A DNA stretch of 64,000 nucleotides from Gammaproteobacteria bacterium (lineage in GTDB: Bacteria; Pseudomonadota; Gammaproteobacteria; Burkholderiales; Gallionellaceae): the NCBI GenBank assembly GCA_018820925.1, contig JAHJNJ010000042.1, positions 62,001 to 126,000 on the forward strand, written 5' to 3'. Numbering within the stretch: position 1 is the stretch's first letter; every line of letters starts with the position of its first letter. A program made the position numbers and the translations under genes. The notes below the pieces were generated by a model. The model did not search any database and was not told the DNA's origin. It worked only from the letters and a program-made list of their open reading frames with translations. Positions 18,894-40,303 of this stretch are shown in pieces.

Positions 18894-18920
18894 TAAAGTT
18901 TTCCCGTAATGCTCCGATAA
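18894..18920 (+). promoter_or_regulatory. Sigma-28 (FliA) promoter of the flagellin operon
   Basis: TAAAGTTT (18894-18901), an 11-bp spacer and tCCGATAA (18913-18920) match the FliA consensus TAAAGTTT-N11-GCCGATAA at all but one base. It lies about 100 bp upstream of the flagellin start, giving a leader of roughly 90 nt. Confidence 0.9.
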
Positions 18921-24609: not shown

Positions 24610-25353
24610 ATGGAGAGCTCAACGCTCATTCCGACACCCGCCAGGAAGAAGCTGGCCATTATGCAGCCCTACTTTTTCCCCTATCTGGGTTATTGGCAGT
24701 TGCTGGCAGCTGTCGACACTTTAGTTCTGCTCGACGATGTGAATTACATCAACCGCGGCTGGATCAATCGCAACCGCATCGCCCTCAACGGCGAACCAAC
24801 TTGGCTGACCGTGCCGTTACGGGGCGCCAGTCAGAACAAACTCATCTGTGACATCGAGATCGCACCGGACGACGGCTGGAAAAAGCGCATGCAGCGCACG
24901 CTCTCCACCGCCTACGCCAAGGCACCGCAATCCGCCAGCGTGCTGGCGCTGTTCGAACAATGGCTGGCGCATGCCGACGGCAACCTCTCCGCTGCGCTGC
25001 ATCACAGCATCACCCAGGTAGCCGACGCGATCGACATCAAAACAACCATCGTGCCCAGCAGCGGTATCTATCCCAAAGGGGAGCTGAAAGGTGCAGACCG
25101 CATCCTTGATATCTGCCAGCGCGAGGGAGCTTCTGTCTACGTCAATCCGCCCGGCGGACGCGAACTTTACGATGCCGAAGCTTTTCGGCAAGCCGGGATA
25201 GAGCTGATGTTCCTGCAGCCCGATTTGCACCAGAATGAATTGCGCACCGGCGCCAGCGACGGCAGCGTGTTATCCATCCTCGACTCTCTGATGCACAACC
25301 CCGCTGAAGAACTGGCCGAAGCGGTAAAGCGTTTTGCACTACAGGCTGCCTGA
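24610..25353 (+). CDS. WbqC-like protein
   Basis: Member of the WbqC family, found in O-antigen, capsule and flagellar glycan clusters and without a proven reaction. The 247-aa protein shows the family N-terminus KKLAIMQPYFFPYLGYWQLL and DDVNYINRGWINRNRI, then TWLTVPLRG and YVNPPGGRELYD near 180. It starts 11 bp after the ycgR stop and opens the decoration island; its base use is still like the flagellar genes. Confidence 0.85.
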   Translation: MESSTLIPTPARKKLAIMQPYFFPYLGYWQLLAAVDTLVLLDDVNYINRGWINRNRIALNGEPTWLTVPLRGASQNKLICDIEIAPDDGWKKRMQRTLSTAYAKAPQSASVLALFEQWLAHADGNLSAALHHSITQVADAIDIKTTIVPSSGIYPKGELKGADRILDICQREGASVYVNPPGGRELYDAEAFRQAGIELMFLQPDLHQNELRTGASDGSVLSILDSLMHNPAEELAEAVKRFALQAA

Positions 25354-25444
25354 CTGAATCGGTCGATCGGCGCTCAGCAGCATTGCAATTAGATCAGTCC
25401 GCGATTACTTTGATGACACAGTAAGATATGTAGAGGGAAAGCCA

Positions 25445-26386
25445 ATGTTCAAATGGATCAAGAAGGGGCGTATATTTGTCCCGAATAACAATTTCCCATG
25501 GATGTTCAGTCATGCCCAGTGCCCGTTTCCTTTAGAGTTTGACGGCTTCATCAGAGTGTATTTCGCCACGCGGGAGGACTACAAAGACGGAATGTGCCGA
25601 GCCTTTGGCGGATTCGTGGATCTGGACAAATACACATTCAAGGTTATTAACATTTCTTCGCAACCATTAATCGAATTAGGCGGTGTGGGTGAATTCGACG
25701 AATTTGGTTCCATGCCGATAAGCGTAGTCAGGCATGACGGCGAGTTCTATCTTTATTATGTCGGCTGGTCCCGCCATTACAGTGTGCCCTATGATTGGGA
25801 GATTGGATTGGCCAAAAGCGTGAACGGCGAAAGATTTACCAAAGTGGGCAAGGGACCGCTTCTCGGCCCCACCCTGAATGAACCTTACTTAAATTCAACC
25901 CCGGTAGTCTATAAACTGGCAGAAGATGACTGGCATATGTTTTACCACACTGGCGTAAAGTGGATCCGGGAAGGCGACAAGCTTGAGTCACAATATGTCA
26001 TCAAGCACGCAACATCCAGAAATGGTCTGGACTGGAACAGAAACAATATTCAGGTGATCCCCTTCAAGGTGGAAAACGAATGCCAGACTACTCCCGCAAT
26101 CATGAAACTGGGGGACAGATTTCATATGTTTTTTTGTTACCGTTTCGGGCTGGATTTCAGGGCTGACAAGGATAAATCCTACCGCATCGGCTACGCCTAT
26201 TCAGACGATCTGGTTAACTGGACCCGCGACGATTCACGGGCCGGAATCGATGTCTCCGAGACGGGATGGGACTCACAGATGATCGAATACCCGCACATCG
26301 CAAAGATCAACGAAAAATTCATCATGTTTTATTGCGGCAACCATTTCGGAAAAGAAGGATTCGGATATGCAGAGCTGGAGATATAG
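25445..26386 (+). CDS. Five-bladed beta-propeller glycosidase-like protein (GH43/GH130-like)
   Basis: The 313-aa protein reads as repeated propeller blades: MFSHAQCPFPLEFDG, RVYFATRE, GEFYLYYVGWSRH, DWHMFYHTGVKWI, RFHMFFCYR, and EKFIMFYCGNHFGKEGFGYAELEI at the end. Such proteins are annotated as glucosyl hydrolases or phosphorylases, and in surface-glycan clusters their reaction is unknown. It has AGAGGGA before the ATG and no signal peptide, so it is cytosolic. The DNA turns clearly more A+T-rich from this gene on. A broken C-terminal copy lies at 31597-31753. Confidence 0.75.
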   Translation: MFKWIKKGRIFVPNNNFPWMFSHAQCPFPLEFDGFIRVYFATREDYKDGMCRAFGGFVDLDKYTFKVINISSQPLIELGGVGEFDEFGSMPISVVRHDGEFYLYYVGWSRHYSVPYDWEIGLAKSVNGERFTKVGKGPLLGPTLNEPYLNSTPVVYKLAEDDWHMFYHTGVKWIREGDKLESQYVIKHATSRNGLDWNRNNIQVIPFKVENECQTTPAIMKLGDRFHMFFCYRFGLDFRADKDKSYRIGYAYSDDLVNWTRDDSRAGIDVSETGWDSQMIEYPHIAKINEKFIMFYCGNHFGKEGFGYAELEI

Positions 26387-26413
26387 ATCGGATTCATATC
26401 CGGGGAAGATCGC

Positions 26414-28129
26414 ATGAAAGTTGCCAGGTATGTAGCGCAAGTGCTGAGCGACAACGGAATCGATACGGTATTCGGCCATATCGGCGGATTCAATGCGGAC
26501 ATGATTGACGCGATGACCGAGAGCGGGAAACAGAAATTCGTACTGAATTACCACGAGCAAGCGTCCGCTTTTGCGGCCAATGCCTTTGCCATGGTCAGGG
26601 AAAATCTGGGGGTAGCCACTTCTTCCGGCGCACCCAGTTCCTGCAATCTGGTGGCGGGTATCGCCAACTCATTTTTTGACTCGGTCCCCTGCCTTTTCCT
26701 GGTTGGCAGCGTCCACACCAAGGCGGTCAGGAAGTCTCCCGAAATCAGGCAGAACGCCTTCGAAGAAATCGATATGGTCTCGCTGGTCGCAGGGATCTCC
26801 AAGTATGCGGTGAAGGTAACCGATCCAAAGGATATACGGTATTGCCTGGAAAAGGCTCTTTATGTCGCCAGGGAAGGGCGCAAAGGACCTGCAGTCCTCG
26901 ACATTCCCTATGACGTAGCCCGCAGCGACGTCAATGTGGAGGAACTGAAGGCTTTTTCTCCGCCGCAAGAAGAAAACTTCGATCCAATCGATGTACACGA
27001 ATTCGTCAAGACACTGGAAAATGCCAAGCGGCCATTGCTGCTTCTCGGCGGAGGGTGCAGGAGTGCGACGTCGAGACAAGCGCTAGGCGAACTGCTCGAC
27101 AAGGTGGCCATTCCCGCCGTGGCGTCCCTCTGCGGACTTGACGTACTACCCCACGACCACCCTTGTTTTGCCGGTTTCATAGGACATTATGGCAATCGAT
27201 ATGCCAACTTCGCGCTGGCAAATTGTGATGCGCTGATCGTGTTGGGATCAAGGCTGGACGAAAGGCAAATTGCCGGCAACAAGGACAGATTCGCCCCGGA
27301 TGCGAAGATTATCCGCGTTGATATCGATCGCGTAGAACATGTCCGTAGTATTGCGGCTCACGTCAGCATTTATTCAAGTGTCGAGAATTTCCTGAAGACA
27401 GTCCTTGAGGGAAATTACCAGGGATTGCATTTTCCAAAATGGCACGACGCGATTGCCGGATGGAAGAAGCGCTATCCATCTCACGACATAAAACTCGATG
27501 AAGTTAATGCTCACAATTTCCTGAACGCCATATCCGGGTATCTTCCGGAAAATCTCGTGGTCTGTGTCGATGTTGGACAGAACCAGATGTTTACGGCGCA
27601 GTCATTACGGCTGCGGCAAGGCAATAGACTTCTGAATTCTGCGGGGTACGGATCAATGGGATATTCCCTCCCGGCCGCAATAGGTGCGGCATACGCCCAG
27701 CCAGACGCAACTATCATTTCCATAAACGGCGATGGCGGGCTGCAAATGAACATACAAGAATTGCAGGTCATCAAGCGAGACAAACTCCCGATCAAAATCA
27801 TCGTCCTGAATAACAATTGTCTTGGCATGATCAGGAGGTTGCAGGAAAGACTTTTTGATGATCGTACCGTCGCCACGGTGCAGGGCTATGAGTCTGCCGA
27901 TTATTCCGCAATAGCCCCTGCATATGGTCTGCAGTATGTAAAGATTGATTCGGCAGATCAATATTGCCTTATGAAGGATCTGTTAAACAGCCCCGCCTCT
28001 GTTCTCGTAGAAGTAATACTCCCCCAGAAAATAATGAACAACCCCGAGCCTGGCGCCGAGATCGATTTGCAGACGCCGCTGCTCTCCGAAACAGAAAACG
28101 AGCAGATTAAAATGGATTGCAAGTTCTGA
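26414..28129 (+). CDS. Thiamine diphosphate-dependent acetolactate synthase-like enzyme
   Basis: The 571-aa protein has the three ThDP-enzyme domains. The catalytic Glu is in NYHEQASAF (Glu48), the central domain follows, and the ThDP/Mg motif starts GDGGLQ at 439-441 and closes with VLNNNCLG. Residues expected for catalysis are present. Housekeeping acetolactate synthase is unlikely because no small subunit or ilv genes are near. By context it may add a two-carbon unit to a keto-sugar, as YerE does for yersiniose, but that is inference. It shares one base with the next gene (TGATG). Confidence 0.82.
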   Translation: MKVARYVAQVLSDNGIDTVFGHIGGFNADMIDAMTESGKQKFVLNYHEQASAFAANAFAMVRENLGVATSSGAPSSCNLVAGIANSFFDSVPCLFLVGSVHTKAVRKSPEIRQNAFEEIDMVSLVAGISKYAVKVTDPKDIRYCLEKALYVAREGRKGPAVLDIPYDVARSDVNVEELKAFSPPQEENFDPIDVHEFVKTLENAKRPLLLLGGGCRSATSRQALGELLDKVAIPAVASLCGLDVLPHDHPCFAGFIGHYGNRYANFALANCDALIVLGSRLDERQIAGNKDRFAPDAKIIRVDIDRVEHVRSIAAHVSIYSSVENFLKTVLEGNYQGLHFPKWHDAIAGWKKRYPSHDIKLDEVNAHNFLNAISGYLPENLVVCVDVGQNQMFTAQSLRLRQGNRLLNSAGYGSMGYSLPAAIGAAYAQPDATIISINGDGGLQMNIQELQVIKRDKLPIKIIVLNNNCLGMIRRLQERLFDDRTVATVQGYESADYSAIAPAYGLQYVKIDSADQYCLMKDLLNSPASVLVEVILPQKIMNNPEPGAEIDLQTPLLSETENEQIKMDCKF

Positions 28130-29091
28130 TGTGCACAATTCTGGTTTCAGGTGCCTCCGGTATCGTTGGATATGGCATTCTAAAATCTCTGAGGCAGAGT
28201 CATCCGGATTGCCGGCTGATCGGCACTACCGTACATGACGGCAGCATAGCACCGGCTTTTTGCGATATTTTTGAAAAAGCCCCGATGACCAATGATGCAG
28301 GTTATTTCCCATGGTTGGTCAACTTGATCAAGAAATACAAAGTTTCACTTGTCATTCCCGGCATTGAAGCGGATGTGTTTGCCTGGAATGAGCACCGTGC
28401 AGCAATTGAACAAAGTGGAGCTGTCGCTCTGCTGAACAATCCTGAACTAATCAGATTGTGCTCCGACAAATGGCTCTTTTACCAATGCCTCATAGAAAAC
28501 AATTCACCATACGCCATTCCAACAAGCCTGGAGTTGGACGAAAAACTGGGGCAGTTTCCTTTACTGATGAAGCCAAGGAAAGGATCAGCGTCACAAGGAA
28601 TAACCATCATCGAAAACAGGGAGAGCCTTGAGAAGCACCTTAGCAACCCCAAGCCCATGATGATGTATCAGCCGGAAATTGGCAGTACGGAGGAGGAATA
28701 TACGGTCTCCGCCTTTTTTGATAAGAACAGCAAGATATGTTCTTTTATCACGCTGAAAAGAAAACTTTCCGAAGCAGGTTTCACTGAAAGCGCAGAAACC
28801 GCCGAACTGGCCGGAGTCGATGATGCACTTTTCCATTTGGGCGGGATATTCAAGCCCATTGGTCCGACAAATTTTCAATTCAGAGTTGAAAAGGGGTGGC
28901 TGAAACTGCTGGAAATCAATCCGCGAATTTCCTCAGCCACATCGATCAGGACAGCATTCGGCTACAATGAAAGCGCCATGGCCGTCGACCTGTTCCTGCT
29001 AGGCATAAGCCCTGGTCAGCCACAAATAAAACGTGGTCATGCGGTCAGATATACAGAGGACAAGATATTTTATGATAGCGCTAATCTCTGA
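28129..29091 (+). CDS. ATP-grasp ligase (carbamoyl-phosphate synthase-like)
   Basis: Cytosolic 320-aa protein: an N-terminal Rossmann-like domain (ILVSGASGIVGYGILKSL) followed by ATP-grasp, with the nucleotide-binding lysine region FPLLMKPRKGSASQGI and the magnesium-binding end LKLLEINPRISSATSIR. ATP-grasp proteins join a carboxylate to an amine or thiol through an acyl phosphate; the substrates here are unknown. It may acylate or aminoacylate a sugar. Its start is fused to the stop of the ThDP gene, and its end overlaps the phosphoesterase gene by 20 bp, so the three are co-translated. Confidence 0.82.
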   Translation: MCTILVSGASGIVGYGILKSLRQSHPDCRLIGTTVHDGSIAPAFCDIFEKAPMTNDAGYFPWLVNLIKKYKVSLVIPGIEADVFAWNEHRAAIEQSGAVALLNNPELIRLCSDKWLFYQCLIENNSPYAIPTSLELDEKLGQFPLLMKPRKGSASQGITIIENRESLEKHLSNPKPMMMYQPEIGSTEEEYTVSAFFDKNSKICSFITLKRKLSEAGFTESAETAELAGVDDALFHLGGIFKPIGPTNFQFRVEKGWLKLLEINPRISSATSIRTAFGYNESAMAVDLFLLGISPGQPQIKRGHAVRYTEDKIFYDSANL

Positions 29092-29752
29092 CATCCACGG
29101 TAACCATGAAGCGTTAACCAAAGTGTTGGCAAAAATCGACAGCATGGGCATCAATGAGGTTTACTGCCTTGGAGACGTGGCTGGTTACTATACCGAGATA
29201 AATGCATGCTGCGATGAGATACGCAGGAGAAACATTAAAACAGTAATGGGGAATCATGACTGGTATGTGGCTGGAAAGAGTTTCTGCCCAAGGTCAAAGA
29301 GTGTAAATGACTGTCTCAAGTATCAGAGGTCTGTTATCTCCGAAGAAAATTTCGCCTGGATTCGTAGCCTGCCCATTTTTCTGAACGCAGGTGAACTGTC
29401 GATGGTGCACGGAGGATGGGGCGACCCTATTGACGAATATGTGGACCCAACTGAGGATTACTTTTCGCAGATCGATGGAAAATTTTTTGCCTCGGGACAC
29501 ACTCATAGACAGGTAATCTGCCAATTTGAGGACAAGGTTTATTGCAATCCCGGCTCTGTCGGACAACCCAGAGACAATGATCCAAGAGCCGCTTTCGCAA
29601 CATTTGATGGAAAAATGTTTCACCTTCATCGGGTCGAGTACGATTTCAATCGAGTCGGCGACCTGATGGAAAAAGCGGGCTTTTCCGGTTATTACTATGA
29701 TTGCTTGAAGAGTGGCGCCCAAAGACTTGGCTGGGCAGAAACCATGAAGTGA
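29072..29752 (+). CDS. Metallophosphoesterase of the YfcE/calcineurin-like superfamily
   Basis: The 226-aa protein has the full two-metal motif set: SDIHGNHEAL, GDVAGYY, GNHDWYVAG, HGGWGDP near 115-125, and SGHTHRQ, then NPGSVGQPRD. It should hydrolyse a phosphomonoester or diester, perhaps a sugar phosphate made by the neighbouring enzymes (inference). The start at 29072 lies within the end of the ATP-grasp gene. It is the last gene of the rightward cassette. Confidence 0.85.
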   Translation: MIALISDIHGNHEALTKVLAKIDSMGINEVYCLGDVAGYYTEINACCDEIRRRNIKTVMGNHDWYVAGKSFCPRSKSVNDCLKYQRSVISEENFAWIRSLPIFLNAGELSMVHGGWGDPIDEYVDPTEDYFSQIDGKFFASGHTHRQVICQFEDKVYCNPGSVGQPRDNDPRAAFATFDGKMFHLHRVEYDFNRVGDLMEKAGFSGYYYDCLKSGAQRLGWAETMK

Positions 29753-29882
29753 CAAACCGGAATTATGGACACTCATTAGTCGGCCGGTAGTCAAGGGCAA
29801 AAATATAGGCATCGCAATCCGGCAAACCCAACCGCACCCGTTTCCTCATTCTGTTGGTTGCAAAGAGAATCGCACCAGACAC

Positions 29883-30503
29883 TCATCGCACACCTTCCAA
29901 CGAGATAATGACCCCGCTTTCTCGCAGAAAACCGATGATTTCATCGACACATTGAGCCAGAGATAAACTCCCTGTATCCACAATAAGTTCCGGACTTACC
30001 GGCTCCTCATAGGGGGATGAGATGCCTGTGAAATTTTGAATCTCGCCAGCGCGAGCGCGCCGATACATCCCCTTCACATCCCGGCTCTCACAGATTTCCA
30101 GGGGGCAACGGCAGTACACTTCAATAAAATCCCCGACATCAAATAGCTGGCGAGCCACCAGCCGATCTGAGCGAAAGGGGGAAATGAAGGCCGTTAGCGT
30201 TACAACGCCTGCATCGACAAACAACTTTGCTGTCTCGCCAATCCGGCGAATATTTTCCTTGCGATCATTGTCAGAAAATCCAAGGTCTGCACACAACCCA
30301 TGCCGTATGTTGTCACCATCCAGAACATACGTGCGGCATTTCATCTGAAACAGTTTTTCTTCAACTGCATGAGATAGCGTAGACTTCCCTGACCCGGAAA
30401 GACCTGTGAACCATATTACCGCGCTATGGTGATCATTTAGCCGCTCCCTGCGATCACGTGTCACGCTTGCATGATGCCAGACAATGTTTGATTTTTGCTT
30501 CAT
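29883..30503 (-). CDS. cysC: Adenylylsulfate (APS) kinase
   Basis: Phosphorylates APS to PAPS, the universal sulfate donor. The 206-aa protein has the P-loop GLSGSGKST at 34-42, DGDNIRHGL, and the APS-kinase serine motif FISPFRSDR (Ser108). It has no fused sulfurylase domain. No cysDNH or sulfate assimilation genes are near. It overlaps the sulfotransferase gene by ATGA, so PAPS production and use are translationally coupled. Confidence 0.93.
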   Translation of the reverse strand: MKQKSNIVWHHASVTRDRRERLNDHHSAVIWFTGLSGSGKSTLSHAVEEKLFQMKCRTYVLDGDNIRHGLCADLGFSDNDRKENIRRIGETAKLFVDAGVVTLTAFISPFRSDRLVARQLFDVGDFIEVYCRCPLEICESRDVKGMYRRARAGEIQNFTGISSPYEEPVSPELIVDTGSLSLAQCVDEIIGFLRESGVIISLEGVR

Positions 30504-31546
30504 ATGGCGAGATCGGCCATAGGCTGCAATTCACATGGATAATCTAATGCCTGCAAATCCAACCCCGTCACTTCGGCCAATGCCCTGTTGTGGGGAACAA
30601 ACATGTTATTGAGTACATCCCGCCAACGCGCCGGATATTCCGCCGCCATGGGAGGGACATAGTCCTTTATCACCTCTGCGGCCGCACGATAGATCATCGT
30701 CCGCATCGAATAGCTTTTTTCCGCCTCTGCCGGAACGCTGCCACCATAGTTGACCTTCCAGTGCGCCCTCAATTTTTCCGTATCCGTCATGCCAAAATGC
30801 CCGCTCCCCATATTGTTCGGGTATTTCTCGTTCATTTGGCGCACCGCTTCGATATAGCGTTTGTCATCTGAATTGTTGTATTTCTTCAATTCCAGATCCA
30901 GCGGGATGATACCTGTAAACAGGCTGATTTCCTTCAGAACTTCCTGTTGCTCGCGAACCAGCAGTTCCATGGGAATCACGGCCACATTCTCCGCCCCGAA
31001 GAGCCCGGCATAGAGATCGAACATGCGGTCGTAATACAGATCGGAAAGGATCGTGCGAAACTGATGGAAATAGTGGTATTCGATAAATCGGGGGAAGTCT
31101 CCCTGATAACCGCAGCGCACGCACTCGAAGTAGAACGAAAGAAACAGGTCAAGCTGGTTGCGAATAACCATGAGAACCTTGCAATCCGGGCCGAACAGAG
31201 AATGCAGCCGCCGCGCTTTTTCCACCACATCAATGTCGTAATGGAAGGTGAACGCCATACTCTCTGAGGAGAAGCAGAGCAATTTCTTTGATTCATCCTG
31301 TTCGAACTTTTCGATATGCGATTGCAAATAGTCGCGCGTCTTCTGATCGTCGTACACGAACGATTTGGCATATCGCAGATCGACTTCCCCGATGCTAGCC
31401 ATTTCCTCGGTTATCCAGCCATGCACATTTTCCGCCCTGCCCCAGCCGAGAAAATAGATTTCCGGATGCTTATTGAAATAGTCCAGTTGCAGACTCGTGG
31501 ACATGCATTTTGGATACCCAATGTGAAGCAACCTTGTCTTAACCAT
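30500..31546 (-). CDS. PAPS-dependent sulfotransferase
   Basis: The 348-aa cytosolic protein begins MVKTRLLHIGYPKCMSTSLQ. PKCMSTSL (12-19) is the 5'-phosphosulfate loop, and KVLMVIRNQLDLFLSFYFECVR supplies the Arg/Ser of the 3'-phosphate loop. No transmembrane anchor is seen. The acceptor is unknown; context points to a sugar on flagellin or on a surface glycan. It is the first gene of a two-gene leftward operon with cysC, with modest A+T enrichment. Confidence 0.85.
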   Translation of the reverse strand: MVKTRLLHIGYPKCMSTSLQLDYFNKHPEIYFLGWGRAENVHGWITEEMASIGEVDLRYAKSFVYDDQKTRDYLQSHIEKFEQDESKKLLCFSSESMAFTFHYDIDVVEKARRLHSLFGPDCKVLMVIRNQLDLFLSFYFECVRCGYQGDFPRFIEYHYFHQFRTILSDLYYDRMFDLYAGLFGAENVAVIPMELLVREQQEVLKEISLFTGIIPLDLELKKYNNSDDKRYIEAVRQMNEKYPNNMGSGHFGMTDTEKLRAHWKVNYGGSVPAEAEKSYSMRTMIYRAAAEVIKDYVPPMAAEYPARWRDVLNNMFVPHNRALAEVTGLDLQALDYPCELQPMADLAI

Positions 31547-31596
31547 GAATAAGACCTTTCAGTAATAAGCGAAAATTCATTTTTGAACCACCCTGA

Positions 31597-31753
31597 TTAT
31601 GGCTGCCACTCGGCGATGCTGAACCCGCTGCGCCCCAAAACCATTGCCGTAATAGAACATATAGCGCTTACCAGTGACATCGATCACATAGGGATAGCAC
31701 TGCATCTCTTTCTTCCAATCTCCCGTTGAGCATTTCCAGCCAAAGACTGACAT
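31597..31753 (-). pseudogene. Frameshifted C-terminal remnant of a GH43/GH130-like propeller gene
   Basis: The minus-strand translation contains TGDWKKEMQCYPYVIDV then GKRYMFYYGNGFG, which aligns with the last blade of the intact gene at 25445-26386 (EYPHIAKINEKFIMFYCGNHFG). The frame is then lost in a CCCC run (31633-31636). Removing one base restores GFGRSGFSIAEWQP and a stop at 31597-31599, matching the intact ending GKEGFGYAELEI. The first 260 or so residues are missing. Confidence 0.7.
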
Positions 31754-31797
31754 CCTTGCGCACCTAAGCCATGACGCTTTCTTCCTTGTCTCATGAT

Positions 31798-33831
31798 TCA
31801 TTGCGGTTCGCGCAGCCAATCCTGCCAGATCATGCGCAACCTGGATTCGAAATTGCGCGCAAACGCCGCAACCTGCCATTGCGGTGAGGCAGCCACATGC
31901 TTGCCCAGCGTGGCGCGCAATTCCACCAACCGGGCCGGATCGGCCGCCAGCGCAGCCGCCTTGGCGATATATCCGGCGGTATCACCGGCAATGAACCGGT
32001 CCAGTCCGGCACCCGCAAGAATGGCGCCGGTACTTCTGCCGCGCCAATCGTTGCCTTCGATGGTAATCACCGGCACGCCCTGCCACAGCGCATTGATGGT
32101 GGTCGATCCGCTGCTGTAGGGAAAAGTATCCAGCGCAATATCGATCAGTTCATAACTTTTCTTCATGTGCTTGTAATGCGACATCCCCTCCAGAATCAAC
32201 CGCTCCGCATCAATCCCGCGCCGCTTGAAGAAATCGCGCACACGGACGCACTCCGCCGGTAAACGCAGATTGTTGGATTTCAGGTACAGGCGCGAACGCG
32301 GCACCTGACCGAGCAAGTCGGCCCATGTGGCCAACACCCGCTCGTTAACCTTGAAAAAATCGCCAAAGCATCCGAAAGTCACATATCCGTTTGTTTCGCA
32401 GCGCGGTCGCGCTACAACGGGTGGCTCGCCCATGTCCCATGCGCAAATCGTTCCCGGCGGCATCTTGAATATTTTCTCTACAAAGACGTTTTCCTCGCCC
32501 TCGCGGACGCAATATTCGTCGGTGATCACGTAGTTGTATGCCTTCACCCCCACCGTACACGGCAGGTTGTACCAGTTCAACTGGATGGGCGCGGGTTGCC
32601 TGAGCAGCGTTTCGAAGTAGTTCGGGCTGCGTATGCGCCCGTTGATATCCAGCATGATGTCGATCTCGTCGCGGCGAACCAGCGCAAAGAAATCCGCGCC
32701 GGGCAGTTTGCGGATATCGCGATACTGGTCGACGATGGGACGAATCTTCGCTTCGCCTATGCCGAAGTTATAGCAATACAGCTCGATTTTGCTTCGGTCA
32801 TGCGCCCTGAAATAGGGGTAAAGCGTATGCGCGCCGATCACACTATCGAAGTAGTCGCCGACAATCCCGACCTTGAGGCGCCGATCCGGGTTGCGATCAT
32901 TTTTGAAATCTCCGGGATGCGGCAGCAACTCCTCATGCGCATGCAATTTCGACCACTCCCGGCTTTCCCGAAAGTAATCCGCCGCAGTATGCCTGTCGCT
33001 CGCGAGATAGCACTTGAGCAGGAAGTTGTGGTTCTCCACCGAATTGTCTTTGGACAGATCGTCACGCGCCAACGCCTCGGCAAGATCAATCAGGCCGGAA
33101 TTAAAGAATGCCTCTTTGGCAGGTGTGTGATCCTGAATATCGGCCTCAGCATGTTTCATCAACATGCTCGCCATTTGATGCTCCGGATGCTGCGATAATA
33201 CTTTGCTCACATAAGGTATGGCCTCGTCACTTCTTCCCTGGTTGATCCTGATCTTGGCAAGCAGGTTCAATACATCGATGTTGTCGGGTTCGAGATGGTG
33301 CGCCCTGACAAAACTCTCCCAGGCCTCACTCAAATCATGGTCCCGCGTGAAATGAATCATCCCCACGCGCGAGTGTGCAGACACCGAATCATGCTTGAGC
33401 GCCAGCGCTGTCTGGTAATAGCGCATGGCAGCATCCATATCGCCCTTGTCGTAATAAGCCGTGGCTGCATTGAAGTTTACTTCCGGAGAGTCCGGGCAAA
33501 GCTCAAGCGCTTTGAGGAAACAATCGAGCGCCTGATCCAGCCGCTCCGACGCAAGCAGAAGCATGCCGAACTCATTGAGCGCTGCAGCAGAATCCGGCCG
33601 GATGGAAAGCGCCGCACGGAAAAATCCCTCGGCCATCGTTTGTTGCCCCATCTTGTTCGCGGCCTGCCCAAGCGCGTGATAAGCGTCGAAATTCGCCGGA
33701 TCCTGCGCCAACACCTTCTGATATGCCATGATGGCTTCCGCAAGCTGCCCACGCCGATGAAGAGCGACAGCAGCCTCCAGCAAAGCCGCGACACCGGATG
33801 GAGCATTACTTTGCGCCAGATTGGAATTCAA
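31798..33831 (-). CDS. TPR protein with a SPINDLY/O-GlcNAc transferase-type glycosyltransferase domain (GT41)
   Basis: The 677-aa cytosolic protein has an N-terminal TPR superhelix (about 10-250; repeats ending in DPANFDAYHALG, RPDSAAALNEFG, CPDSPEVNFNAA, EPDNIDVLNLLA). A C-terminal GT41-like two-domain transferase follows (about 310-670) with KVGIVGDYF, VTFGCFGDFFKVNERVLATWADLL and the C-terminal nucleotide-sugar segment TTINALWQGVPVITIEGNDWRGRSTGAILAGAGL. TPR arms in this family recognise protein substrates, so flagellin is the leading candidate acceptor. Confidence 0.88.
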   Translation of the reverse strand: MNSNLAQSNAPSGVAALLEAAVALHRRGQLAEAIMAYQKVLAQDPANFDAYHALGQAANKMGQQTMAEGFFRAALSIRPDSAAALNEFGMLLLASERLDQALDCFLKALELCPDSPEVNFNAATAYYDKGDMDAAMRYYQTALALKHDSVSAHSRVGMIHFTRDHDLSEAWESFVRAHHLEPDNIDVLNLLAKIRINQGRSDEAIPYVSKVLSQHPEHQMASMLMKHAEADIQDHTPAKEAFFNSGLIDLAEALARDDLSKDNSVENHNFLLKCYLASDRHTAADYFRESREWSKLHAHEELLPHPGDFKNDRNPDRRLKVGIVGDYFDSVIGAHTLYPYFRAHDRSKIELYCYNFGIGEAKIRPIVDQYRDIRKLPGADFFALVRRDEIDIMLDINGRIRSPNYFETLLRQPAPIQLNWYNLPCTVGVKAYNYVITDEYCVREGEENVFVEKIFKMPPGTICAWDMGEPPVVARPRCETNGYVTFGCFGDFFKVNERVLATWADLLGQVPRSRLYLKSNNLRLPAECVRVRDFFKRRGIDAERLILEGMSHYKHMKKSYELIDIALDTFPYSSGSTTINALWQGVPVITIEGNDWRGRSTGAILAGAGLDRFIAGDTAGYIAKAAALAADPARLVELRATLGKHVAASPQWQVAAFARNFESRLRMIWQDWLREPQ

Positions 33832-33832
33832 C

Positions 33833-34048
33833 TTAGCCCCCTCCCCTTCCCCGCACCGGTAAAAAGCGCATAGCGCTCACAGCTGCGAAAAATTGAATTG
33901 CTGCGCCTATAGTTTCATCGTAGATCGCTTCGTGGTCGCGGTTCATGTTCCCGGGCGACTTCGGCGCGAAGAAATAACATGCGTCCGGCGGATAGAAACT
34001 CTCGACATCCTCATAATCATTCAGCCCGAAAATATCGACTTTGCGCAT
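33833..34048 (-). CDS. Small hypothetical protein
   Basis: The 71-aa frame begins MRKVDIFGLNDYEDVESFYPPDACYF and ends in a Gly/Arg-rich tail next to the following gene. AGGGATGGA precedes the ATG, and the frame lies between the methyltransferase (24 bp) and the TPR transferase (1 bp), consistent with co-transcription. I do not recognise the family. It could be a real small protein or the tail of a lost gene. Confidence 0.45.
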   Translation of the reverse strand: MRKVDIFGLNDYEDVESFYPPDACYFFAPKSPGNMNRDHEAIYDETIGAAIQFFAAVSAMRFLPVRGRGGG

Positions 34049-34071
34049 CTCGATCCATCCCTGATGTCCGG

Positions 34072-34803
34072 TCAGTCCTTGATCACGTACGCCGTCGGCA
34101 TCCAGCCGTTGGGGAACGTGCGTATCACCGCATGCGGCAACACCTCGCGTACCGCGCGCGTCTCGCCGGGGGCGATATCCAGGTTGTACTGGTCGAAGAT
34201 GACGACGCCGCCCGGCGTCATGCGTTCCCAGAAATACGGCAGGCTGTTTTTGACGACTTTATAGATACCGATGTCGAAAATTACCAGCTTGAATTGCAGA
34301 TGCGGATGTGCGCTGAAAAATTCGCCCACCGCACTCGATGTCATATCCATGTCATGCACTTTGAGGATGTGCCCCAGCCCCTGCGCCTCGATCAGTTTAT
34401 CCACGCGTGACTTGGGTTCGGCATACGCACCTTCGATGAGGTGCGCCTTGTCTTCCTCTGAAATGTCGCGCTCCCCCTGAAACCAGTCGAAGCCGTGCAC
34501 CTGGGTCAGCGCGTGCGGCTCGTACAACTGGCTCAGCTTGGTCAGCAGCATGGAACCGGCGCCTTTGTACATGCCGATCTCGGCCATATGCCCGGCGATC
34601 CCCAATGTCTTCTGGTAAGTCTCGATCAGTGCCATGAAACGTGCCAGCGTGAGATGCCCGGTGAAGCAGGGAAAGTTGTGGATGTAATCCTCGGTGCTAT
34701 AGCCGAGCCCTTTGATGGTCTCCAGCGCCTGATAGTAGGGCTCCCTCATGGCTGCAAACTTGCTGCTTTCCAGATCGCCAGGTACGAAATCGCCTTTAGA
34801 CAT
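34072..34803 (-). CDS. Class I SAM-dependent methyltransferase (TylF/macrocin O-methyltransferase-like)
   Basis: The 243-aa protein has a helical N-terminus (YQALETIKGLGYSTEDYIHNFPCFTGHLTLARF) and a Rossmann methyltransferase core: MAEIGMYKGAGSMLL (SAM loop, near 87-101), QVHGFDWFQG, KLVIFDIG and PGGVVIFDQYN. TylF-like enzymes O-methylate sugars. The start at 34803 gives MSKGDFVPGDLESSKF. It is 7 bp from the upstream methyltransferase. Confidence 0.82.
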   Translation of the reverse strand: MSKGDFVPGDLESSKFAAMREPYYQALETIKGLGYSTEDYIHNFPCFTGHLTLARFMALIETYQKTLGIAGHMAEIGMYKGAGSMLLTKLSQLYEPHALTQVHGFDWFQGERDISEEDKAHLIEGAYAEPKSRVDKLIEAQGLGHILKVHDMDMTSSAVGEFFSAHPHLQFKLVIFDIGIYKVVKNSLPYFWERMTPGGVVIFDQYNLDIAPGETRAVREVLPHAVIRTFPNGWMPTAYVIKD

Positions 34804-34810
34804 GATTTTT

Positions 34811-35899
34811 CTATCCCCTGAATTTGATGAACAGTGCTTTGCCGCACTCGAATGATCGTTCGATATCACCTGCGCGCTCCTGCAACAGTGCGTCGCCGAC
34901 GCGCTTGGGGCCATCGCCGTGCACCCAGACATAATCGTCAAGGATCAGCCAGCCGTTCGGATCCAGCAGCGGCAGCCAGGATTCGCAATCCTGCTTGACC
35001 TGCGCATAGTCGTGATTACCGTCGATGTGCATGACCGCGATGCGCCCCTCGTAGTCCACATGCCCGAAGGTCGGGCTATGAACCGACTTCTCCTTCTTGA
35101 ATATTTCGCAGCCGTGCACCGATTCCTGCTGCAGGTAATTGAAACTGCCGAAACCGATCGGATAAGTATTGACGGCGAAATCCTGCGGCGGCACATCCCA
35201 GCGCCATTCGTTCACCAGCCCGACCCGGACCGTCTCGGGCGAATCATGCTGCGTGGCGGCGGCGGCCTGCCAGGGGTCGATGGCGAGCACGTTGCCGATG
35301 TTGTAACGCCGCGCCAACAGCGCCAGTACCGCAGCCGACTTGCCCACCAATGATCCGACCTCGACCACGTCACCCTTGGGTGCGCTGGCGAAAATGGCCA
35401 TCATCGCCGCAATCTTCTGTTCGTTCGATTCGCCGTAGATATGGGAGGACATGCGGAACGCCGCCGCGATCTCGATGTCGCTTAGATCGCTCTTGCCGCC
35501 CGCACATTGGTCTATGAAAGCGCGCCAGAACGACACCTTCGCCATCAGCCTGTCGAAGCGTTCGATCTCGCGCTTGATCGGCGAACTGCCAATCAGCCGC
35601 AAAGACAGGCTCTGCTCCGCAATGAAACGTTCCAACCAGGAATAGGCGGCAGCTACCGGTGCGTAAATACGGGTGATGTTGTGCTGTTGCACCAGCGCCA
35701 AGAAGCGCGCGGGAAACTCTGGGTCATCCACATAAGGCAGCACGGCGAGTTCACCCTCATGGGTAGCCAGTCCGGCATCCCAGACCGATGAAGCAGCCAC
35801 CACGCGCTCGTCGCGTTCGCGCGACACTTCCAGATATTCGCGCCCGTCGGGATGAGAGGCGGGGAACACCAGTGTGGCCGGTTCTTGCGTCGCGTCCAT
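34811..35899 (-). CDS. Two-domain protein with a C-terminal class I methyltransferase domain
   Basis: Residues 1-150 of the 362-aa protein form a domain I do not recognise (LVFPASHPDGREYLEVSRERDERVVAASS, RIYAPVAAAYSWLERF), possibly sugar- or nucleotide-binding. Residues 165-360 are a methyltransferase: GDVVEVGSLVGKSAAVLALLARR, VLAIDPWQ, AVMHIDGNHDYAQVKQDCESWLPLL, GWLILDDY. The pattern resembles cephalosporin-hydroxylase/Methyltransf_24 proteins. The ATG at 35899 is 2 bp after the aminotransferase stop, with GGGAGGA upstream. Confidence 0.75.
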   Translation of the reverse strand: MDATQEPATLVFPASHPDGREYLEVSRERDERVVAASSVWDAGLATHEGELAVLPYVDDPEFPARFLALVQQHNITRIYAPVAAAYSWLERFIAEQSLSLRLIGSSPIKREIERFDRLMAKVSFWRAFIDQCAGGKSDLSDIEIAAAFRMSSHIYGESNEQKIAAMMAIFASAPKGDVVEVGSLVGKSAAVLALLARRYNIGNVLAIDPWQAAAATQHDSPETVRVGLVNEWRWDVPPQDFAVNTYPIGFGSFNYLQQESVHGCEIFKKEKSVHSPTFGHVDYEGRIAVMHIDGNHDYAQVKQDCESWLPLLDPNGWLILDDYVWVHGDGPKRVGDALLQERAGDIERSFECGKALFIKFRG

Positions 35900-35901
35900 G
35901 T

Positions 35902-37044
35902 TCACTGTCCTCCCTCGCGCAGTGCGCGCCATAGACATTCCACAACCACGTCCTGCGTCTCCACATCCAGATCGGGATACATCGGCAGGCACAGCACGCG
36001 GTGCGAGATGTCCGTCGCCACCGGCAGGTGGACCGTCGCGGAAGAAGAAAGGCCACGGTACACTGGAAACTCGCTGATCAGCGGATAAAAATAGCGCCGG
36101 GCATAGACGCCACATTCGCGCATGCGCCGGTACAACTCGTCGCGCGAAATGGGAAAATCGTCTTCGATGAAGATGGGAAAGTAGGCATGGTTGTAGCGGA
36201 TGTCATCCGGGATGGCGTGCATGCGGATGCCGCGCACGTCCTTGAGTATTTGGCGGTAGCGCACATCCACCTGCTTGCGCCGCTCCAGCGCATCGTCGAT
36301 GTACTTCAGTTGCAACAGACCGAATGCGGCCTGCACCTCGTTCATCTTGCCGTTGATGCCAGGGCCAATCACCGTCGTCTCATCGGCAAAGCCGAAGTTC
36401 TTCAGGTAATCGATGCGGTGTTTGGTTTTGGCGTCACGGCAGATGATTGCGCCGCCCTCGAAGGTATTGAAGACCTTGGTGGCATGGAAACTGAGGATGG
36501 ACATGTCGCCGTATTCCAGTACCGAATGTCCGCCGCTCATACGCATGCCGAAGGTATGCGCCGCGTCGTAGATCACCTTGAGACCATAGGTATCGGCGAT
36601 GCGCTCTATTTCGTCCACCGCGCAGGGCACGCCGTACACATGCACCGGCAGGATGCCTGTGGTCTGCGGGGTAATGGCCGCTTCGATCTGCTTCGGGTCG
36701 AGATTGAGGCTCACCGGGTCGATATCCACGAACACCGGCTTGATGCCGTTCCAATCCAGTGCGTGGCTGCTCGCCACGAAACTGTAAGGCGTGGTGATGA
36801 CCTCTCCCGTTACCCTGAGCGCCTGCAATGCGATGACCAGCGCCAGCGTCGCATTGGCGAACAGCGAGATGTGCTCCACACCGAGATATATCGCCAGTTC
36901 CCTTTCCAGCTCCTGATGGTAGGGGCCGTTGTTGGTGAGTTGTTTGCTGTCCCATATCTTTTGCAGATAGGGCATGAATTCCTCCAGCGGAGGCAACAGG
37001 GGTTGCGTGACATAAATCGGCGATGTTCTTTGCTGGTCGGTCAT
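35902..37044 (-). CDS. DegT/DnrJ/EryC1/StrS-family sugar aminotransferase
   Basis: PLP enzyme that normally transaminates an NDP-keto-sugar. The 380-aa protein has SKQLTNNGPYHQELERELAIYLG, the cofactor-contact segments TTPYSFVASSHAL, PVFVDIDPVSLNLDP and DAAHTFG, and the Schiff-base lysine in SFHATKVFNTFEGGA. The lysine is present, so it is a true aminotransferase and not a dehydratase variant. It overlaps the downstream TPR transferase gene order by ATGA at 37041-37044. Confidence 0.9.
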   Translation of the reverse strand: MTDQQRTSPIYVTQPLLPPLEEFMPYLQKIWDSKQLTNNGPYHQELERELAIYLGVEHISLFANATLALVIALQALRVTGEVITTPYSFVASSHALDWNGIKPVFVDIDPVSLNLDPKQIEAAITPQTTGILPVHVYGVPCAVDEIERIADTYGLKVIYDAAHTFGMRMSGGHSVLEYGDMSILSFHATKVFNTFEGGAIICRDAKTKHRIDYLKNFGFADETTVIGPGINGKMNEVQAAFGLLQLKYIDDALERRKQVDVRYRQILKDVRGIRMHAIPDDIRYNHAYFPIFIEDDFPISRDELYRRMRECGVYARRYFYPLISEFPVYRGLSSSATVHLPVATDISHRVLCLPMYPDLDVETQDVVVECLWRALREGGQ

Positions 37045-39896
37045 TTGCCTTCCTCCTGCCTCGTTTCATCCGCTTCCTGCATGTTCACTTCGAATGCCTG
37101 CGGAGGCAGCCCGGCGCACCAGCGCCGCCACATGGTACGCAGGGCGCGCGCCAGCCCTGCGGCGATCAGTTCCGGCTTGCCCAGTGCCGATACGGAAAGG
37201 CGTTCGCGCAGCACGGCGCGCAGACTGGACAACGCCGCCGTGTCGCCTGCCAGCGCCAGCCCTTTCTGCACGAAATCGGCCGCATCGCTGGCGATGCAAG
37301 CTTCCAGCCCGACATGGCCGAGAATCTGCGCGCCCGGACGGCCCGCCACGGTATTACCCGCGAGGGTCAATGTCGGCACACCCATCCACAGCGCATGAAA
37401 GGTCGTCGTGCTGCCGTTGTAGGGAAAGGTATCCAGGCAGATGTCCACCTGCCGGTGCAGCGCCAGATATTCCGCCATGCCGCTGCGCGCATGAAAATCC
37501 AGGCGTTCGCGCGCGATGCCTTCCTGCGCAAACCATTCGATCAGCATCTTGTATTTTTCGTCTTCAGCCATCCCTCCCAACAGCATGCGCGCATCGGGCA
37601 TGGCGCGCAGCAGTTGCGACCAGAGCGCGATCACGCCGGGACTCAATTTGCTCATGCGGTTGAAGCTGCCGAAAGTGATATAGCCGTTGTCCAGCGCGGG
37701 CAGGCCACTAACCGGCGGCGCCTCCCGGCTTGGCAGGAACGGCGCGCTGGCGGGCAACTGCACGATCTTTTCCGTGAATTGGTCGTCGAACCGGCCTTGC
37801 GGCAACAGGTGGCGGTCTGCCAGGTAGTAATCCATGGTCGTCAGGCCGGTCGTACCCGGATACCCCATCCAGCTTGCCTGCACCGGCACAGGTTTGCGCG
37901 CGAATACTGGCAAGCGGTTATTGTTCGCATGCCCCGAGAGGTCGATCAGGATGTCGATCCCTTCGGCCGATATCTTATCCGCCAGCGCCACATCCGACAT
38001 GCCCGTAACCGGGTACCAATGCGCAAAATGTTTTTTGATGCGCCGCGTGGTCGCATCGTCCACGACATGGTTGTAATAGGCATGCAGCGTCAACCGTGCA
38101 TTGCCGGCCAGGCAGGCCAGTATCGGTTCGATGAAATAGGCAATTGCATGGTCGCGGAAATCGCCGGAGACGAAACCGACTTGCAGGCAGCGTTCCGGAT
38201 CGCGTGAATTGACATGCTGCGCAAGTGCATCCGGCGGCAAGGTTTCGAATTGTTCGCCGAAACGGCGGTGTTCGAGAAACAGTGCGTGCGCATCCAGCGT
38301 TGCGCTCTGCGTCAGGCAGAACAGCAGGTTGCTGTACGCCTGGGCAAAGTCCGGCTTGATCTCCAGTGCACGCCGGTAGCTGACCACTGCTTCTTCCAGC
38401 CGTCCCGCATCGTGTAGCGTCCCGCCCAGGTTGCTGTGCGCCTCGGCCAGGTCCAGCTTGTATTCCAGCGCCTTGCGATAGCTGGCTTCGCCTTCTGCGG
38501 TGCGTCCCAAGCTGTTGAGCGTGCTACCCAGGTTGCTGTGCGCTTCGGCATAATCGGGCTTGATCTCGAGCGCCTTGCGGTAGCAGGTTTCGGCATCTTC
38601 CGGCCTGCTCATGTCCTGATAGGTGGCGCCGAGATTGCAATACGCCTCGGCATAATCCGGCTTGATCTGCAGCGCTTTGCGGTAGCTGGCTTCGGCTTCA
38701 TCCGGTTTGCCCAGGTTCTTGAGCGCATTGCCCAAGTTGAAGTGCGCCTCAGCAAATTGCGGATCCATTTGCAACACTTGGCGGAAACAATCGGCAGCCT
38801 CCTTCTCGCGTCCCATATCATGCAGCACGATACCCAGGTTGTTGCGCGCCTGCGTGTATTGCGGATCGATTTGCAACGCGCACCGGCAACTGGCAGCCGC
38901 CTCGTCCAGACGTCCCAGATCATGCAGCAAGGCGCCCAGGTTGCCGTGCGCCCTGGCGTAGTCCGGCTTGATCCGCAACGCCTTGCAGTAACAGGCTTCG
39001 GCTTCGTCCGGGCGCTTCAATTCCTGTAGCGTGGCTCCCAGGCAATTGAGCGCCTGCGCATAATCCGGGTTGATCTTCAGTGCCCGCCGGTAGCTGGCTT
39101 CGGCTTCCTCGAAGTTGCCCAGATTGTGCAGGATGATGCCGAAATTGTTGTGCGCCTCGACATCGCGCGGTGACAGCGCCACGGTTTTCTGCATGGCGGG
39201 CAGCGCATCCCGGTGGCGCCCCATTTGCTGGAACACCACTCCCAGCATCTTCCAGCCGATCCAGTGCTGCGGATAGCGCTCCGTCATGGTCTGCGCGAGC
39301 GCTGCCGCTTCTTGCATGCGTCCCTGGTTGAACGATGCCACAAGCGTGTCGATTTCCTTCTGGCCGGGATTTTTTCCGTGATGTGATGACGGCTTCGGGT
39401 TTGGCTTGCCTGATTTACTATTGTTGTCCTTCTTGGCGCCGTGCACGGATAGAGGTGCTGGCGGCTGTTTCACCCCGGGCTGACCATCCGCCTGTTCCGC
39501 ATCCTGCCCCTCGCTCTGCAAAAGCAGTTCCAGCGCTTCGACTTCCTCGCCATCCAGGCCCTGCTGCCGTGCGATCTGCAGCACCTGCCGTGCATCGTCC
39601 GGTTGACCGGCCCGGTATAGCGCATCGATATAACTCAACCAGTATTGTCCGTGCGTCGGCTCGGCCTCAAGTGCGGCCAGGAAGTGAGCCAGTCCGGCAG
39701 CAGGCTGTCCCATCTGCACCGACACTACGCCCAGATTGTGGTTGGCTTTGGCATGATGCGGATTGATCTGAAGGACATCCCGATATTCTGTTTCGGCTTC
39801 CCGCAACCGGCCGGCCTGCTGGTGTTCCAGAGCCCGGCCGAACGCCTGTTCTTCCGCCGACAACCCGCTTTGCGCTGAGGAAAAATCAATGCTCAT
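37041..39896 (-). CDS. Large TPR protein with a SPINDLY/O-GlcNAc transferase-type domain (GT41)
   Basis: The 951-aa protein has a short TPR block, a charged linker (about 125-180) and a long regular TPR superhelix (about 180-510; repeats such as PDYAEAHSNLGSTLNSLGRTAEGEASYRKALE). The GT41 catalytic region is at 560-930 with [53 protein letters not shown] and TTFHALWMGVPTLTLAGNTVAGR. The many near-identical TPR units invite repeat-number variation. It probably modifies flagellin or another flagellar protein. Confidence 0.88.
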   Translation of the reverse strand: MSIDFSSAQSGLSAEEQAFGRALEHQQAGRLREAETEYRDVLQINPHHAKANHNLGVVSVQMGQPAAGLAHFLAALEAEPTHGQYWLSYIDALYRAGQPDDARQVLQIARQQGLDGEEVEALELLLQSEGQDAEQADGQPGVKQPPAPLSVHGAKKDNNSKSGKPNPKPSSHHGKNPGQKEIDTLVASFNQGRMQEAAALAQTMTERYPQHWIGWKMLGVVFQQMGRHRDALPAMQKTVALSPRDVEAHNNFGIILHNLGNFEEAEASYRRALKINPDYAQALNCLGATLQELKRPDEAEACYCKALRIKPDYARAHGNLGALLHDLGRLDEAAASCRCALQIDPQYTQARNNLGIVLHDMGREKEAADCFRQVLQMDPQFAEAHFNLGNALKNLGKPDEAEASYRKALQIKPDYAEAYCNLGATYQDMSRPEDAETCYRKALEIKPDYAEAHSNLGSTLNSLGRTAEGEASYRKALEYKLDLAEAHSNLGGTLHDAGRLEEAVVSYRRALEIKPDFAQAYSNLLFCLTQSATLDAHALFLEHRRFGEQFETLPPDALAQHVNSRDPERCLQVGFVSGDFRDHAIAYFIEPILACLAGNARLTLHAYYNHVVDDATTRRIKKHFAHWYPVTGMSDVALADKISAEGIDILIDLSGHANNNRLPVFARKPVPVQASWMGYPGTTGLTTMDYYLADRHLLPQGRFDDQFTEKIVQLPASAPFLPSREAPPVSGLPALDNGYITFGSFNRMSKLSPGVIALWSQLLRAMPDARMLLGGMAEDEKYKMLIEWFAQEGIARERLDFHARSGMAEYLALHRQVDICLDTFPYNGSTTTFHALWMGVPTLTLAGNTVAGRPGAQILGHVGLEACIASDAADFVQKGLALAGDTAALSSLRAVLRERLSVSALGKPELIAAGLARALRTMWRRWCAGLPPQAFEVNMQEADETRQEEGK

Positions 39897-39976: not shown

Positions 39977-40303
39977 TCAGACCTGCATGTTCATGATGTC
40001 GTTATACGCCGCCACCACTTTGTTGCGCACTTGCACGGCGGTCTGGAACGAGATGTTGGCCTTCTGCATGGCAATCATCGTATCACTCAAACTCACCTTG
40101 TCGTCGCCCAGCACAAAGGCTTTTTGCAGGGCTTCCGCCTGATGTTGCGCCTGGTTGACGCCATCCAGCGAGGATTTCAACACATTGGCGAAATCGACAC
40201 CACTGGTCGATGCCGGGGTTTGCACCGGCTGTCCCTGGGCGGCGGCCATCGCCGCGCGCATCTGGCTCAGCAGATTATCCACATTGGAAACATTCATACT
40301 CAT
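39977..40303 (-). CDS. fliE: Flagellar hook-basal body protein FliE
   Basis: Links the MS ring to the rod. The 108-aa protein has an N-terminal NVDNLLSQMRAAMAA, the FANVLKSSLDGVN segment and the conserved C-terminal SLSDTMIAMQKANISFQTAVQVRNKVVAAYNDIMNMQ. It is divergent from fliF and directed toward the TPR transferase gene; GGAGGTGAACC precedes the ATG. Usually fliE and fliF lie in the same direction, so its orientation is atypical. Confidence 0.95.
   Translation of the reverse strand: MSMNVSNVDNLLSQMRAAMAAAQGQPVQTPASTSGVDFANVLKSSLDGVNQAQHQAEALQKAFVLGDDKVSLSDTMIAMQKANISFQTAVQVRNKVVAAYNDIMNMQV

Follow-up and report, generated by a model that had tools for sequence, protein, structure and literature searches.

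The enterobacterial GT41 flagellin islands are described in the main text of PMC4875605 as variable gene sets beside flagellin, which have a lowered G+C content, carry SPINDLY-type GT41 glycosyltransferases, DegT aminotransferases and methyltransferases, and gain and lose genes in a modular way. A locus that resembles them in these respects is found at positions 24610-39896 of a 64,000-nucleotide stretch from a Gallionellaceae genome (GCA_018820925.1, contig JAHJNJ010000042.1, positions 62,001 to 126,000; hereafter the window), where it lies between the flagellar genes ycgR and fliE. Unlike these islands, whose description in that main text is free of the words sulf-, thiamin, ATP-grasp, viosamine, glycosid- and acetolactate (PMC4875605), it also encodes an adenosine 5′-phosphosulfate (APS) kinase, a sulfotransferase, and a cassette of GH130-like, thiamine diphosphate (ThDP)-dependent, ATP-grasp and phosphoesterase proteins. 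The general kind of island, with tetratricopeptide repeat (TPR)/GT41 transferases, DegT and methyltransferases beside flagellin, is already known; what is unusual here is the predicted sulfation and the portable cassette. We consider it fairly probable that the locus is a flagellin-glycosylation island, assembled from recombining modules in a ycgR-fliE hotspot, which builds and transfers a methylated, sulfated amino sugar.

The viosamine island of Pseudomonas syringae makes, methylates and transfers a 4-amino-4,6-dideoxyhexose, as is proposed here for the window, and to our knowledge it has neither sulfation genes nor a ThDP cassette. Viosamine itself is mentioned as a component of P. syringae flagellin in PMC10117803. 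The sugar cluster of Moumouvirus australiensis in the same paper has, like the window, an adenylyl-sulfate kinase and a sulfotransferase beside sugar genes, there for an aminotransferase and an acetyltransferase; it differs in that it serves viral fibrils, with no flagellum, and in that its sulfation is predicted only (PMC10117803). The fliA-fliC insert of Dickeya zeae WH1 also places an S-adenosylmethionine methyltransferase, a glycosylase, WbqC, DegT and a second methyltransferase beside flagellin, but its description names no ThDP enzyme, ATP-grasp ligase, phosphoesterase, APS kinase or sulfotransferase, leaves two of the seven genes hypothetical and gives no product (PMC9650423). An earlier note on this DNA, made by a model from the sequence alone, had stated that no described pathway with these enzymes was known to it. 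The Dickeya insert is a related set that had already been published. In the openly licensed PubMed Central literature we found neither a sulfated bacterial flagellin nor 3′-phosphoadenosine 5′-phosphosulfate (PAPS)-dependent sulfation or a ThDP/ATP-grasp cassette in a flagellin island.

As far as the published descriptions go, the nearest known chemistry is the sulfonated flagellin of Clostridioides difficile (PMC5207245) and the sulfated N-glycan of Halobacterium salinarum (PMC11980604). The C. difficile type B flagellin glycan bears a sulfur-containing group, as proposed here, although its cap is a taurine-containing sulfonated peptidylamido group and not a PAPS-derived sulfate ester (PMC5207245). 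In H. salinarum, the N-glycan sulfotransferases Agl30 and Agl31 give sulfated glycoprotein glycans and the archaellins are N-glycosylated; however, this system is archaeal and N-linked, and its filament has a different origin (PMC11980604).

An insertion hotspot between ycgR and fliE

Pfam searches of the window, which belongs to a genome of 3.44 Mb in 52 contigs, recovered all twelve enzyme genes that the earlier note had named between ycgR and fliE, and in the same order. The flanks are flagellar, with flagellin, FlaG, FliD, FliS, a FliK-type protein and YcgR on the left and FliE followed by FliF on the right; of the fliDST/ycgR operon that had been read on the left, FliD, FliS and YcgR were recovered, while the open reading frame (ORF) labelled FliT gave no hit in Pfam.

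FliE was found in 27 of the 34 genomes of the genus, and both flanks of the gap could be read in 21 genomes, the window's own included (G027 and G028 were resolved from fetched coordinates, and G002, G003, G004, G011, G022 and G025, with one flank only, were left out of the count). The gap is empty in 10 of these 21, with ycgR and fliE 37-92 bp apart, and is filled in the other 11 by 3.5-20.7 kb of inserted DNA. A long match to GT41a, the larger GT41 protein of the window, is present in 10 of the 11 filled gaps; in the eleventh (G017) the match is confined to the TPRs, and the transferases there are of the GT2 type. A protein-type glycosyltransferase is thus what the inserted islands share, and this fits a flagellin-modification island better than a random cargo site. 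Since the same families recur in the ycgR-fliE gap of other genomes of the genus, the gene set is more than chance.

With the window's genome counted in, 38 of 299 relatives carry the GH130-like gene. Flagellar markers accompany it in 18 of the 37 other loci, against an expectation of about 0.6 for a target estimated at 46 kb in each genome; 10 of the 37 stretches are shorter than 15 kb, and the count of 18 is unchanged when FlaG, FliS and FliT are not used as markers. GT41-type matches (which may be to the TPRs only) occur in all 18 flagellar loci vs 5 of the 19 others; the sugar module is kept in both settings, and it is the transferase type that varies with the presence of flagellar genes. 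The linkage to the flagellum drawn in the earlier note is supported by both surveys, and the neighbourhood search did not find the gene set conserved only beside lipopolysaccharide (LPS) or capsule genes.

With flagellar adjacency in several genomes, GT41 O-glycosyltransferase genes, and variable sugar genes that show signs of transfer, the locus has the make-up of a flagellin-glycosylation island. Its G+C content lies at 0.47-0.54 between 24 and 32 kb and rises to 0.55-0.60 in the right half, while the rest of the window is mostly at 0.56-0.61, with comparable dips (0.52-0.54) at 2-6 and 50-52 kb. The gene of the flagellin, the proposed acceptor, is about 5 kb to the left, and residues 98-172 of this protein contain 18 Ser/Thr.

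Two other filled gaps of the same genus may be described here. That of G006 (L115:3728-16156) holds a wholly different island, with a HAD phosphatase, an SDR protein, a ThDP enzyme, a NeuB-type synthase, FkbM and TylF methyltransferases and a sulfotransferase, and is a second flagellar island with both a ThDP enzyme and a sulfotransferase. That of G017 (L126:1062-8759) holds a TPR-methyltransferase fusion, DegT, WbqC, a methyltransferase, a sulfotransferase and the GT2/TPR transferases.

The putative sulfation pair

The genes of the APS kinase and the PAPS-type sulfotransferase overlap by ATGA. The kinase is the single strong match of its kind in the genome (228.6 bits; a second match, over part of the profile, reaches 21.8 bits), and the sulfotransferase is the only PF00685 match, covering only the middle of the Sulfotransfer_1 profile. 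The predicted fold of the latter (model pLDDT 82) matches 3rnl and eukaryotic PAPS sulfotransferases, sulfotransferases head its list of PDB matches (best TM-score 0.52/0.71), and its phosphate-binding residues were read by eye only. Because CysH of this genome, whose gene adjoins that of a second PF01507 protein, passes the APS_reductase model (259.8 vs a cut-off of 235.3) and fails the PAPS_reductase equivalog (149.9 vs 254.2), sulfate assimilation probably does not need PAPS, and on these profile scores its supply looks dedicated.

Sulfotransferases also occur in the ycgR-fliE gap of two further genomes, namely G017 (L126:4833-5645, PF00685, 59 bits) and G006 (L115:11627-12475, PF13469, 68 bits). 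Both are unmatched by the window's own in tblastn, and that of G006, missed by greedy ORF picking, was recovered by a genus-wide PF00685 scan. The 21 gaps therefore hold three sulfotransferases vs 0.05 expected, or two vs 0.05 without the window; these expectations use rounded genome sizes and assume an even spread of sulfotransferases over genomes, though the actual spread is uneven, and in whole genomes PF00685 was the one sulfotransferase family sought. Together with the lone strong kinase, apparently not needed for assimilation, these genes favour the sulfation that the earlier note had raised as a possibility.

Closer relatives of the sulfotransferase, 48% and 44% identical, adjoin DegT in two Wzm/Wzt polysaccharide-export loci, L094 and L097, where the same cassette is some 8 kb away and a relative of the window's methyltransferase MTb is also present (49% and 40% identical, respectively). 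L094 also holds an APS kinase, 65% identical to that of the window; no APS kinase was matched in the L097 stretch, and its genome has one in a frame of 746 amino acids. At class level, the search for the sulfotransferase gave matches in 7 of 369 genomes, namely the window's and six more, the latter at 28-37% identity, and the stretches around the two best of these loci (L084 and L085) gave no flagellar matches. A genome-contig scan with the window sulfotransferase alone gave no relative. Among plasmid records it matched four, at 27-32% identity.

A mosaic island with a portable cassette

The complete four-gene cassette was seen in six genomes. Four of these have it between ycgR and fliE, namely the window's, G007, G014 and G027, the last three together with GT41, the methyltransferase MTa and DegT; a further flagellar cassette, in G003, is interrupted by a contig end inside the GH130-like gene. 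The other two are those of the Wzm/Wzt loci, from Gallionella STA_17 (G140, L038/L094) and an alphaproteobacterium (L097), which share DegT, sulfotransferase and methyltransferase types with the window. Since both cassette and sulfotransferase are present in these export loci, the module is not flagellum-specific. The earlier proposal that the product goes to flagellin or a surface glycan is supported in part. Named close relatives of the cassette come from Gallionella, Sideroxydans, Sideroxyarcus and metagenome-assembled genomes (MAGs) of Gallionellaceae; two of them, G007 and G014, fall in the window's own genus by kinship, which places the host among the iron-oxidising Gallionellaceae.

The four cassette proteins of the window are 88, 70-73, 68-69 and 72-73% identical to those of the same-genus flagellar islands and are closer to those of STA_17, whereas WbqC, MTa and DegT share 77-91% identity with their counterparts in those islands, and the identity of WbqC to that of STA_17 is only 35%. 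On these identities, the island is a mosaic, whose cassette has moved between a polysaccharide and a flagellar locus, in one or the other direction. Among the cassette-bearing islands of the genus, the GT41 proteins share 48-59% identity.

A feature absent from the list in the earlier note is a relic of about 53 C-terminal residues of a second GH130-like gene, detected by tblastn and blastx between the sulfotransferase and GT41b genes. It is 51% identical over 53 amino acids to L060 (E 1e-16) and alone has no Pfam match. Because this relic stands there, and a GH130-like gene follows GT41b in L039, L040, L041 and L055, the sulfation pair seems to have replaced a second GH130-like gene beside GT41b.

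Enzymes of the island and a proposed pathway

The plus-strand half of the island (WbqC to phosphoesterase) is transcribed toward the minus-strand half, which begins next to fliE (Table 1). Among the proteins of the former, WbqC is 79-84% identical to its counterparts in three same-genus islands, and a sequence search of solved structures gave no match for it. The model of the GH130-like protein (pLDDT 94.7) is predicted to have the GH43/GH130-type propeller fold, its top PDB matches being the glycoside hydrolase BT_0996 and beta-1,2-mannan phosphorylases; the protein fails the curated functional model NF052550 (51 bits vs a cut-off of 450). The ATP-grasp protein comes just under NF009402 (217.1 vs 218) and matches the structure 2pn1.

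The best PDB match of the ThDP enzyme is 5ahk. A plain acetolactate synthase was considered for it and rejected on its scores with TIGR00118 (413, below 538) and NF006524 (417, below 738), among the 25 listed of 53 matching models, and its alignments with acetolactate synthases are not decisive. A search of viral contigs with this protein gave no match. In plasmids all matches were below 60% identity: the ATP-grasp protein matched 101 records, at about 30% among the matches listed, and the ThDP enzyme 1631 records, of which the annotated ones among the eight listed are acetolactate synthases.

In the minus-strand half, the genes of GT41a and DegT overlap by ATGA. The closest solved structure to GT41a is SPINDLY (7y4i/8dtf, 441/439 bits), and for this reason GT41a is likely to transfer to Ser/Thr in the cytosol. 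By the model TIGR04427 (298 bits, below its cut-off of 650) and the structure 2po3, DegT is nearest to dTDP-4-keto-6-deoxyglucose 4-aminotransferases of the DesI/VioA type, though under the curated cut-off. MTb scores 22.8 bits with the TylF profile, just below the cut-off of 23, and MTa is 77-86% identical to proteins of four same-genus islands. RmlB is encoded outside the island in the same genome (504 bits).

From these families we infer the substrate, the order of the steps, the place of sulfation and flagellin as the acceptor. RmlB would supply dTDP-4-keto-6-deoxyglucose, and DegT would aminate it at C4 to give a nucleotide-linked 4-amino-6-deoxy sugar. WbqC and the cassette proteins would then synthesise an acyl (or carbon-branch) substituent and add it to the sugar: the ATP-grasp ligase could convert the new amine to an amide, the phosphoesterase could strip a phosphate en route, and the ThDP enzyme could provide the acyl group or add a carbon branch, in the manner of YerE, which does so to a keto sugar. 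One or two methyltransferases would methylate the sugar, the APS kinase would supply PAPS, and the sulfotransferase would add sulfate. The SPINDLY-like TPR/GT41 enzymes would place the sugar or sugars on flagellin Ser/Thr residues while the protein is still in the cytosol, prior to export, whereas in the Wzm/Wzt loci the same sugar would go onto a polysaccharide.

Table 1. Genes of the island, its flanks and two other flagellar genes of the window
Feature	Position	Strand	Family evidence
Flagellin, 238 amino acids, proposed acceptor	19020..19736	+	PF00669, PF00700
YcgR, left flank	23834..24598	+	PF07317, 89 bits
WbqC-family protein	24610..25353 (ORF opens 24502)	+	PF08889, 206 bits
GH130-like five-bladed propeller protein	25445..26386	+	PF04041, 27.0 bits (cut-off 26)
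ThDP-dependent enzyme, acetolactate-synthase-like	26414..28129	+	PF02775/PF00205/PF02776 (142/122/89)
ATP-grasp ligase, carbamoyl-phosphate-synthase-like group PRK12767	28117..29091	+	PF15632, PF02655 (32 and 30)
YfcE-like metallophosphoesterase	29072..29752 (ORF opens 29033)	+	PF12850, 75 bits
APS kinase	29883..30503	-	PF01583, 228 bits; above NCBIfam apsK cut-off
PAPS-type sulfotransferase	30500..31546	-	PF00685 (Sulfotransfer_1), 26.4 bits (cut-off 22)
Relic of second GH130-like gene	31634-31792	-	tblastn/blastx
TPR/GT41 glycosyltransferase b (GT41b)	31798..33831	-	PF13844, 110 bits, and TPR families
Methyltransferase b (MTb), Methyltransf_24	34072..34803 (ORF opens 34941)	-	PF13578, 37 bits
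Methyltransferase a (MTa), Methyltransf_24	34811..35899 (ORF opens 36115)	-	PF13578, 65 bits
DegT/DnrJ sugar aminotransferase	35902..37044	-	PF01041, 340 bits
TPR/GT41 glycosyltransferase a (GT41a), SPINDLY-like	37041..39896	-	PF13844, 152 bits
FliE, right flank	39977..40303	-	PF02049, 111 bits
FlgK gene	58607-60556		Pfam
Start codons of WbqC (~24610), the metallophosphoesterase (~29072), MTb (~34803) and MTa (~35899) were refined by eye.

Weighing of the alternatives

Several observations weigh against a flagellin-dedicated sulfation island. The closest relative of the cassette is the Wzm/Wzt locus of Gallionella STA_17 (95, 89, 85 and 90% identity), with no flagellar match in the stretch. 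The window sulfotransferase has no relative in the 119 other relatives searched (120 genomes, E 1e-10; Gallionella STA_17 not included), and within this set no other genome of the genus has one. Furthermore, the genus contains 36 PF00685 matches in 19 of 34 genomes, and as 33 of the 36 are outside the flagellar gap, sulfation in this genus is for the most part directed at other targets. The CysH scores also exceed the cut-offs of two general models that are named phosphoadenylyl-sulfate reductase. Finally, the island contains no sigma-28-like site (up to one mismatch, spacers 14-16), while the window has three vs 0.6 expected by shuffling.

One alternative is that GT41, DegT, MTa and WbqC alone serve flagellin, and that the ThDP/ATP-grasp cassette and the sulfation pair, which merely landed in the hotspot, modify a surface polysaccharide (an LPS O-antigen or another) synthesised elsewhere in the genome. 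It draws on the two export loci in which relatives of the cassette stand with DegT, MTb and a sulfotransferase, on the prevalence of genus sulfotransferases outside the gap, and on related DegT-WbqC-GH130 sets from a Rhizobium and a Tateyamaria plasmid, in stretches whose annotation shows no flagellar gene. On the other hand, G007, G014 and G027 keep the cassette in the flagellar gap with GT41, MTa and DegT, and no export or polymerase family (Wzm/Wzt, Wzx/Wzy) was found among the 20 window ORFs scanned (17089-42024). On balance we regard this explanation as unlikely.

That the island is decaying and yields no product is suggested by the GH130-like relic and by an APS-kinase remnant in the flagellar island of G022 (L063:2511-2867, a 118-residue frame, 61% identical over the matched part), but is very improbable, as the 12 other genes are open over their family lengths, two gene pairs overlap by ATGA, and homologues of similar length exist in other genomes. 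Least credible of all is a sulfotransferase that acts on flagellin tyrosine or a small molecule: tyrosylprotein sulfotransferases are among its top fold matches, but heparan sulfate sulfotransferases are in the same list, and since the same sulfotransferase type is found in the polysaccharide loci L094 and L097 with the same sugar genes, its substrate would most simply be the shared sugar, not the flagellin polypeptide.

Returning to the flagellin-glycosylation reading, a bolder form of it can be put forward only tentatively. A portable module of DegT, GH130-like protein, ThDP enzyme, ATP-grasp ligase, phosphoesterase, methyltransferase and PAPS sulfotransferase might make a new sulfated, ThDP-elaborated amino sugar for Wzm/Wzt-exported polysaccharide and flagellin alike; this would be the first case of PAPS-dependent sulfation of a bacterial flagellin, and flagellar islands of the iron-oxidising Gallionellaceae would have recruited sulfation repeatedly. 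If so, bacterial flagella could carry PAPS-derived sulfate as archaeal glycoproteins do, through enzymes that can be named and tested, and one sugar module would be traded between surface polysaccharide and flagellin, which would give a context to the WbqC, GH130-like and ATP-grasp/phosphoesterase neighbours. We know of no function for these neighbours, which recur across several phyla. As a guess, a fixed negative charge on the filament could alter the sticking of iron oxide to iron oxidisers; in the Gallionellaceae pangenome paper, avoidance of encrustation is raised for envelope genes only, as far as its text on this point goes (PMC10734462).

Further observations

The wider spread of the cassette was surveyed by a scan with an ATP-grasp alignment, which gave 21 relatives, including ones from Patescibacteria, Mycolicibacterium, Flavobacteriales, Chloroflexi, Achromobacter and Bradyrhizobium. 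The phosphoesterase is adjacent in 19 of the 21, and the same stretches contain the GH130-like protein in 15, WbqC in 16, DegT in 15 and the ThDP enzyme in only 5. Five stretches have flagellar matches (three Gallionellaceae, Janthinobacterium FT58W and a Pseudomonadota MAG).

In the loci L098-L112, from several phyla, the ATP-grasp and phosphoesterase genes are adjacent in 15 of 15 cases, a sugar module for which we know of no name; WbqC, DegT and two tandem GH130-like genes are often present as well.

Two sigma-28-like sites of the window, each with one mismatch to TAAA-N15-GCCGATAA, lie at 18894-18920 upstream of fliC and at 60602 (minus strand) upstream of the FlgK gene.

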